This document shows positions 26,413-28,303 of a stretch of DNA of 32,555 bases, piece after piece. Numbering within the stretch: position 1 is the first letter of the stretch; every line of letters starts with the position of its first letter. Source of the DNA: Dictyoglomus sp. NZ13-RE01 (GTDB lineage: Bacteria; Dictyoglomota; Dictyoglomia; Dictyoglomales; Dictyoglomaceae); NCBI GenBank assembly GCA_002878375.1, contig NIRF01000016.1:1-32555 (forward strand). Direction: 5' to 3'. The translations under genes and the position numbers were made by a program. The notes beneath the pieces were generated by a model. That model was not told the DNA's origin. It did not search any database and was given only the letters and a program-made list of their open reading frames with translations.

Positions 26413-27150
26413 CTATTTCACCTCTACCCTCAAAATTTTTCTAAAATAATTCCAGAGCCAATCTACAAAATCATTGAATAAATCATTTATGGTAGGAATC
26501 CTATTCGCCCTCATCCATATGCTGTACCAATAACTTGCAACATCTAATGTTGCTTTATCAATCTGCTTCTGAGTTAACTTACTTACCTTGACAAAGCCAT
26601 TACCTTTTAGATAAGCGGTTTCTATATCTTTATAATAATTATGGGCATCTAATACACTCCTATAAATATAGCGGGTTGGCTGTGAAATATAAATTAATCT
26701 ATCTGCCCTATTAGGTACAATTTGTTCTGCGTCTTTTTCATATTTACTATGAAATCCCTTTTCTTGAGAACTTGATGACGTATGTAAAGGCTGATTTAAG
26801 TCAGCTATGTAATGAGAAAAAACTCCCAATTCAAAAGCTACAAGCCTCCAAGGTCTTTTCTCTCTAATGAGTTCTATAATATAAAAATACTTTTCTCTTA
26901 CTTTATCTAAACCTTTCCCTTTTCCAGTTTCAACCTCATAAATATGATTTTGAAAATCCCTATATACCCTATCTGGAGCTATAGAGCCCTCTAAAATTTC
27001 ATTTTTATATGGAATTATACGATTTTTAAAATCTCTTGGCAAAGAATCTAAAGCTTTTTCAACAATTCTTTGATGAGTCTTACCACTCCATCCTAATATA
27101 GGAGATAAGAACAATAAAAGAAACAAAAATAATAAAATATACCTACGCAT
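26413..27150 (-). CDS. Exported zinc-dependent phospholipase C/nuclease-fold protein
   Basis: A 245-residue protein with a signal peptide that appears to end at Gly20, leaving Trp21 as the mature N-terminus, as in the B. cereus phospholipase C fold. Likely zinc ligands are Trp21, His26, Asp60 (GSIAPD), His69, His113, Asp117 and His123 (SHYIADLNQPLH), His134 and Glu138 (HSKYE). The spacings 113-117-123 and 134-138 match the B. cereus enzyme (118-122-128 and 142-146). Substrate (phospholipid or nucleic acid) cannot be told. The ATG at 27150 has an AAGGAG site; an upstream in-frame TTG is disfavoured. It heads the mtnP-mtnA-mtaD-asnS operon, for which no functional reason is evident. Confidence 0.8.
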   Translation of the reverse strand: MRRYILLFLFLLLFLSPILGWSGKTHQRIVEKALDSLPRDFKNRIIPYKNEILEGSIAPDRVYRDFQNHIYEVETGKGKGLDKVREKYFYIIELIREKRPWRLVAFELGVFSHYIADLNQPLHTSSSSQEKGFHSKYEKDAEQIVPNRADRLIYISQPTRYIYRSVLDAHNYYKDIETAYLKGNGFVKVSKLTQKQIDKATLDVASYWYSIWMRANRIPTINDLFNDFVDWLWNYFRKILRVEVK

Positions 27151-27203
27151 CAAAAACAACTCCTTAGAATAGAAATTATTAAAAAAAGCTAACTAACTTA
27201 GTA

Positions 27204-27272: not shown

Positions 27273-27611
27273 TTAAATAAAGGTTGAGATCAAAGCACCT
27301 TTAGTTTCATCTATCAATTTTATTGCGTTTAAAATTAGAGTCTCAGTATTTATAGTAATATTTTTATCTATTTTAACTGATGTATCCGAGTATATAAAAC
27401 TAAAATCTGAATTATTCATAAGCCTATAAAAAGCTGATTCTCCTCTTTCATTCATGTATTCTACTTCTATCATATTACCATTTTTTAGAAAAATGCTTCC
27501 TATTATATCATCATTATTTTTTACCATTAAAACTCCTGTTCTTCTTTGGATGGAAAGAAAATTTAAAAAGGTTAAAAGTTCTTCTCTATCCATGCTTCCC
27601 TCAATATTCAT
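27273..27611 (-). CDS. PATAN-domain (DUF4388) protein
   Basis: A 112-residue protein made almost entirely of one PATAN/DUF4388 domain: ELLTFLNFLSIQRRTGVLMV, a glycine turn, GSIFLKNGNMIEVEY, GESAFYRLM and a terminal helix. Such domains occur in signalling proteins, often beside response regulators or GTPase regulators, and are thought to mediate protein interaction. Here the domain stands alone, with no partner gene next to it. The ATG at 27611 is preferred over 27650 because a TATAAT (27645-27640) lies between them and a GGGTGG sequence precedes 27611. A CRP-like palindrome lies upstream. Function unknown. Confidence 0.72.
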   Translation of the reverse strand: MNIEGSMDREELLTFLNFLSIQRRTGVLMVKNNDDIIGSIFLKNGNMIEVEYMNERGESAFYRLMNNSDFSFIYSDTSVKIDKNITINTETLILNAIKLIDETKGALISTFI

Positions 27612-27639: not shown

Positions 27640-27645
27640 ATTATA
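27640..27645 (-). promoter_or_regulatory. -10 element of the PATAN gene
   Basis: A perfect TATAAT in the minus sense, 28 bp before the chosen ATG. No good -35 is present at 17-18 bp. A transcript start near 27633 would put the centre of the palindrome at 27667-27682 at about -41.5, where class II CRP-family activators bind and replace the -35. Confidence 0.5.
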
Positions 27646-27666
27646 TCCATTACAAAATAGTTTGAC

Positions 27667-27682
27667 TGTGATTTAAATCACA
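27667..27682. promoter_or_regulatory. CRP-like 16-bp palindrome between PATAN gene and pyrE
   Basis: TGTGATTTAAATCACA is a perfect palindrome and fits TGTGA-N6-TCACA, the CRP consensus; it also resembles Rex-type sites. It lies between two divergent genes, centred about 41 bp upstream of the likely PATAN transcript start and just upstream of the pyrE -10 (TATAAT, 27698-27703). The regulator is not in the window. Confidence 0.6.
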
Positions 27683-27733
27683 TTTCAAAGTATAAGTTAT
27701 AATATATAAAAATTAATGAGAAGGAGAGGAAAA

Positions 27734-28303
27734 ATGAACTGGTTAGAAATCTTTAAAGAAAAAGGAGCATTCTTGGAAGGTCATTTCTTATTATCCTCTG
27801 GACTTCATAGTCCTAACTATCTTCAGTGTGCTCTTATACTTCAATACCCAGAATTAGCAGAGATTATAGCAAAAGAGATAGCAAATAAAATTCCAAAAGA
27901 TGTTAAAATAGACACTGTTATAGGTCCTGCATTAGGTGGAATTGTTATTGCCTACGAATTAGCAAGAGCTTTAAAAGCAAGAGGCATATTTGCGGAAAGA
28001 GAAAATGGTAAAATGACATTAAGAAGAGGCTTTAGAATATTTCCAAAAGAAAATGTACTTATCTGTGAAGACGTTATCACAACAGGAGGGTCTGCCTTAG
28101 AAGTTGCAGAATTAGTAAAAGAATTTGGAGGAAATATTGTTGGATTTGCATGTATTGTAGATAGAAGTGGCGGAAAAGTAAATTTTGAAAAAGATTTATA
28201 TTCCCTTATTAGTCTTAGCTTAGAGACCTATAAACCTGAAGAATGTCCATTATGTAAGAAGAATATTCCCATAGTAAAACCTGGGAGCAAAAACATTAAG
28301 TAG
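27734..28303 (+). CDS. pyrE: Orotate phosphoribosyltransferase
   Basis: A 189-residue enzyme that makes orotidine monophosphate from orotate and PRPP in pyrimidine synthesis. The PRPP-binding loop VLICEDVITTGGSALE and the N-terminal FKEKGAFLEGHFLLSSGLHSP are clear. The C-terminal CPLCKKNIPIVKPGS is typical of the thermophile-type PyrE. The ATG at 27734 follows an AAGGAG site; the in-frame ATG at 27716 lies before that site and is rejected. No other pyr genes are nearby. Its 3' end overlaps the convergent MFS gene by 8 bp. Confidence 0.94.
   Translation: MNWLEIFKEKGAFLEGHFLLSSGLHSPNYLQCALILQYPELAEIIAKEIANKIPKDVKIDTVIGPALGGIVIAYELARALKARGIFAERENGKMTLRRGFRIFPKENVLICEDVITTGGSALEVAELVKEFGGNIVGFACIVDRSGGKVNFEKDLYSLISLSLETYKPEECPLCKKNIPIVKPGSKNIK

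Follow-up and report, generated by a model that had tools for sequence, protein, structure and literature searches.

The intergenic region between the DUF4388 gene and pyrE

The stretch of DNA analysed here, 32,555 nucleotides from Dictyoglomus sp. NZ13-RE01 and referred to as the window, contains a palindrome between two divergent genes. One, on the minus strand, encodes a lone DUF4388 domain (PF14332), also known as PATAN, and the other, on the plus strand, is pyrE. The features of the region are as follows, in order of position.

26413 to 27159, minus strand: encodes an exported, zinc-dependent phospholipase C-like protein and lies downstream of the DUF4388 gene, an order kept in the related genomes G005 and G006
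27273 to 27611, minus strand: lone DUF4388 (PATAN) gene, 112 aa (PF14332, E 2.9e-12), preceded by GGTGG at 27618-27614
27633, minus strand: start of DUF4388 transcription as predicted from the -10 hexamer
27640 to 27645, minus strand: -10 hexamer TATAAT of the putative DUF4388 promoter, with the operator centre at -41.5
27667 to 27682, no strand assigned: Crp-type operator TGTGATTTAAATCACA, centre 27674.5, recognised by its sequence
27698 to 27703, plus strand: -10 hexamer TATAAT of the putative pyrE promoter, with the operator centre at -35.5 and overlapping the -35 region
27734 to 28303, plus strand: pyrE (orotate phosphoribosyltransferase), probable bystander, the domain evidence being phosphoribosyltransferase PF00156 only

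The ATG at 27611 is probably the start of the DUF4388 gene rather than the listed ATG at 27650, since the latter lies upstream of the -10 hexamer and the former is preceded by GGTGG.

The palindrome TGTGATTTAAATCACA agrees with TGTGA-N6-TCACA in 10 of 10 defined bases, as a preliminary description of this DNA had stated, and is the only perfect match in the window, where matches with up to two mismatches are at chance level (12 against 10.7 expected). A scan for the exact 16-mer, as had been suggested, finds a single copy in the 1,927,013-base genome of the window (G000), namely the window's own. The distance from the palindrome centre to the first base of the TATAAT on the minus strand (27645-27640) is 29.5 bp, and taking this base as -12 places the operator at -41.5. 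With a 17-base spacer the corresponding -35 reads CAGTCA (27668-27663), which matches TTGACA in 3 of 6 positions. As far as sequence goes, a centring at -41.5 that overlaps the -35 is thus found on the DUF4388 side, where the TATAAT is at offset 21 from the site, and the class II layout earlier proposed for this gene is borne out; class II promoters are indeed characterised by a CRP site overlapping the -35 (PMC12360894). On the pyrE side the -10 is at offset 15 and the centre at -35.5, which is not a class II layout. The reading for which we argue is that TGTGATTTAAATCACA very probably serves as a class II Crp activator site for the DUF4388 gene and belongs to a genus-wide set of Crp sites, pyrE probably being a bystander.

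Conservation in related genomes

The comparison covers three genomes of the same genus (G000, G005 and G006) and four of a sister genus (G001 to G004). Orthologues of the DUF4388 gene are present in G005 and G006 (49 and 46% identity), with the window's order of the phospholipase C-like gene and two further genes retained behind them, and one-mismatch sites, TGTGATTTTTATCACT and TGTGATTTATATCACT, are found just upstream of them. At offset 21 both genomes have the hexamer GAAAAT, with 4 of 6 matches to TATAAT and a score of 1.9 where the threshold is 4, and better-scoring hexamers sit away from this offset, so that the exact placing at -41.5 holds for the window alone. Lone DUF4388 genes of the sister genus were discarded as orthologues because of their different neighbourhood and 28-35% identity, and the stretches taken around them contain no site with two or fewer mismatches. 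G005 carries both the window type and the sister-genus type of DUF4388 gene. G000 furthermore has, at positions 169881-170183 of contig C1, a match to DUF4388 that is interrupted by a single in-frame TGA.

In G005 and G006 three genes separate DUF4388 from pyrE, encoding a radical SAM protein, a member of the putative cyclase family PF04199 and a glycosyltransferase, as judged from domains read in G005. Within the 300 bp upstream of pyrE, G005 has one match with two mismatches and none closer, and G002, G003, G004 and G006 have no site with two or fewer mismatches; pyrE was not found in G001, and a pyrE search of genome contigs gave no locus titled as this lineage among the 80 listed. These observations bear on the possibility of a shared divergent operator, by which Crp would activate DUF4388 and either repress or activate pyrE, thereby coupling pyrimidine synthesis to cAMP. 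The site does overlap the pyrE -35 region, 15 bases from a perfect -10, and because of this overlap Crp occupancy should interfere with the pyrE promoter. However, the fact that the 300 bp ahead of pyrE lack a site with fewer than two mismatches in all five other genomes where the gene was found, and the centring at -35.5, unlike the common -41.5, make such coupling rather unlikely. The earlier notion that pyrE shares the site is therefore not upheld, and of the conservation that had been sought upstream of both genes only that of DUF4388 is observed.

Site counts and promoter geometry

Perfect TGTGA-N6-TCACA sites number 6 in G000, 6 in G005 and 8 in G006, and 0, 1, 0 and 0 in the four sister-genus genomes, and all 21 of them, including the single one from the sister genus, lie outside ORFs. 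A reversed control pattern gave 0 in six genomes, among them all three of the genus, and 2 in G004. When one mismatch and inner Y/R were allowed, 15, 18 and 25 sites were found in the genus (reversed control 2, 2 and 2), and for the sister genus the counts were 9, 4, 9 and 4, with 3, 5, 3 and 9 for the reversed control. Perfect sites are nearly absent from the sister genus although it shares the regulator, which counts against the reading preferred here. In G000 the 6 perfect sites compare with about 1.8 expected from independent bases, a roughly threefold excess that is weak when taken as a number alone, and the case is therefore carried by position, conservation and geometry.

For the geometry 58 sites were considered (15 of 15 in G000, 13 of 18 in G005, 19 among those listed in G006 and 11 of 26 in the sister genus), 10 of which lie inside ORFs and were set aside from the -10 count of the genus. 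This count covers both sides of 40 intergenic sites, that is 80 flanks, and the 40 sites are not independent since there are orthologous promoters among them. Hexamers were scored with an E. coli -10 matrix at a score threshold of 4, and with such a matrix and AT-rich DNA some of the -10-like hexamers will be due to chance. They peak at offsets 20, 21 and 22 (7, 9 and 6 flanks), giving 22 of 80 flanks against a rotation mean of 5.0 and a maximum of 15 in 5000 rotations, and the exact TATAAT is found at these offsets in 11 flanks against 1.6 by rotation (largest 7). Counted by locus, a -10 at offset 20-22, corresponding to a centre at -40.5 to -42.5, is present at 8 of 10 intergenic loci in G000, the window among them (rotation mean 1.5, largest of 2000 rotations 6), at 6 of 11 loci in G005 (null 1.5, largest 6) and at 7 of 12 in G006 (null 1.7, largest 6). 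The sister genus gives 6 of 8 loci, a figure biased by the picking of the better-looking 11 of 26 sites by eye. It may also be mentioned that a deviating outer letter tends to be a promoter-proximal T (TGTGA...TCACT). Of the 28 combinations of site and side that have a -10 at 20-22 in the seven genomes, 15 show it, and this could possibly be an orientation signal.

A chance palindrome in AT-rich intergenic DNA would be compatible with the approximately 1.8 perfect sites expected in the genome and with the window's chance-level number of matches having two or fewer mismatches. It is nevertheless made very improbable by the facts that the orthologous promoters in G005 and G006 keep a one-mismatch site, that the offset 20-22 geometry is common to seven other G000 loci, and that the reversed control is 0 in the genus.

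Regulator and cyclase

The preliminary description had pointed to a CRP/FNR- or Rex-family gene as something to look for, and both a Crp-family protein and a protein with a Rex domain are indeed encoded in G000. A single protein of the Crp HTH family exceeds the curated cut-off, five weaker HTH matches falling below it. It combines a cNMP-binding domain with a Crp HTH domain, among proteins of solved structure its closest full-length relatives are Crp proteins, and orthologues are present in seven of seven genomes of the phylum that were compared. In E. coli CRP the residues R180, E181 and R185 read TGTGA, and the recognition helix of the G000 protein, SRETATR, presumably keeps these residues. 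FNR-type regulators possess an N-terminal cysteine cluster, and an FNR-type regulator was discarded since the Crp protein (226 aa) has a single cysteine and no such cluster. The crp gene is divergent beside a gene that, judged by eye, we take to be dnaA. Autoregulation of crp was likewise rejected, as no site with two or fewer mismatches occurs in the 160 bp upstream of crp in five of five genomes; the site in the crp region serves a PEGA-domain gene some 4.6 kb away.

The Rex-domain protein of G000, which carries the N-terminal domain of this family, raises the alternative that the palindrome serves the NADH-sensing Rex as its operator, all the more so as Rex and Crp half-sites have TGTGA in common at equal spacing (PMC6391272). 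The Rex consensus given there, TTGTGAANNNNTTCACAA, is however poorly matched, since its inner A and T occur in none of the 21 perfect sites (T/A in 11 and T/G in 6, the window site having T/A) and since the base before TGTGA in the window is C where Rex wants T. A Rex operator is on these grounds exceedingly improbable.

A single class III cyclase catalytic domain is encoded in G000, in a CHASE2 protein whose gene lies directly downstream of that of an exported FecR-domain protein. A Crp-type site accompanies this FecR-cyclase operon in each of G000, G005 and G006, always with TATAAT at offset 20, and the presence of the site suggests that the operon may exert positive feedback on cAMP.

Targets and tandem sites

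Site-bearing targets include PorV/UPF0164-like and other exported proteins, the FecR-cyclase operon, a gene for polysaccharide synthesis, an iron-containing alcohol dehydrogenase, lipoproteins recognised by eye from their signal sequences, and the PEGA-domain protein, the site of which is found in G003 too with TATAAT at offset 21. The list is a partial one, with families named by Pfam and several targets belonging to no Pfam family, and since the targets are mostly exported or outer-membrane proteins, the set has the look of an envelope regulon to which the cyclase operon belongs. A type IV pilus regulon in G000 was considered and dropped, as a clear pilin site is found in G006 only; the pilin site has one mismatch in G006 and two in G005, and no site with two or fewer mismatches is seen at the gene in G000, G003 and G004. 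Hsp20-Lon was also rejected as an activated target, its offsets of 8 and 16 not being those of class II, and the PorV-like gene on the opposite side fits the class II layout. At a tRNA-Ser-like gene, identified by eye, a Crp site lies about 5 bases from the -10, a position from which it would be predicted to repress.

A search around the 40 intergenic sites for a second site with two or fewer mismatches 11-80 bp away gave 8 pairs, all 8 of them at 23 bp, and a whole-genome search restricted to the 23-bp spacing gave 3, 1 and 4 pairs in the genus and none with the reversed control. Judged by the adjoining proteins, three of the eight pairs are at the PorV/Hsp20 locus and two at a NAD-synthetase-like/PorV locus, and as several are thus orthologous promoters there are some five independent cases. 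No tandem partner with two or fewer mismatches lies within 11-80 bp of the window site.

Proposed mechanism

Site, regulator, cyclase, geometry and conservation can be read directly from the genomes, and the course of events that we infer from them, from signal and cAMP ligand to Crp binding, activation and feedback, is as follows. An envelope or extracellular signal would most likely cause the membrane-bound CHASE2 adenylate cyclase to raise cAMP, upon which ligand-loaded Crp would bind the palindrome TGTGATTTAAATCACA. At -41.5 Crp would overlap the missing -35 and bring RNA polymerase to the TATAAT ahead of the DUF4388/PATAN gene in a class II activation. The window site would in this respect be one member of a genus-wide group of class II Crp promoters, mostly located before exported or outer-membrane proteins, and as the FecR-cyclase operon is among the predicted targets, the circuit may feed back positively on itself. 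The oppositely directed pyrE probably adjoins the site through the gene order of this species only and would at most be weakly repressed by Crp occupying its -35 region.

Going further, we tentatively consider, as a possibility on which we would put somewhat less than even weight, that this is an undescribed cAMP-Crp envelope regulon of a deep, thermophilic lineage, with mostly class II sites at -40.5 to -42.5, in which a second dimer, where present, always sits 23 bp off (the distal one at about -64) in a fixed two-dimer arrangement, in which the CHASE2 cyclase activates its own synthesis and in which the lone PATAN protein is an output adaptor to the cell surface. The type of switch is well known, and it is its target set in this lineage that seems to be undescribed. 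This term follows from literature searches at the level of titles and abstract openings alone, in which no such regulon was found under Dictyoglomus CRP/cAMP regulon, adenylate cyclase or transcription factors, and no fixed 23-bp pair under tandem CRP spacing.

What emerges is a map of how cAMP and Crp exert control in this lineage that is open to testing; it comprises a single regulator and a single cyclase together with a motif and an almost invariable promoter geometry, and is conserved enough for target prediction. The targets as sampled concern the cell envelope and not sugar use, and the initial lead is corrected in that the probable target is the signalling gene DUF4388 and not pyrE. 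It is the wider regulon, with the strictness of its geometry, that is of interest.

Comparison with known systems

Rex operators resemble the window site in their TGTGA/TCACA half-sites and spacing but differ (PMC6391272) in the inner A...T and the outer T, which the window lacks. Other parallels are the E. coli class II CRP promoters CC(-41.5) and mchA (PMC12360894), which share with the window a TGTGA inverted repeat with a 6-bp spacer, a site placed over the -35, a poor -35 and a good -10. Unlike these, the window would involve a distant Crp of another phylum and other target genes. With regard to the output, the arrangement is reminiscent of the Cya1/Sycrp1/PixG system of Synechocystis, where a cAMP-Crp pathway and PATAN proteins are likewise tied to cell-surface machinery (PMC7690835). 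In that source PATAN is part of CheY-like regulators and cAMP-Crp controls type IV pili, whereas in the present case the domain stands alone under a Crp site and a clear Crp site at pilin is confined to G006. PATAN domains of Synechocystis bind the pilus motor PilB, according to PMC10519157.
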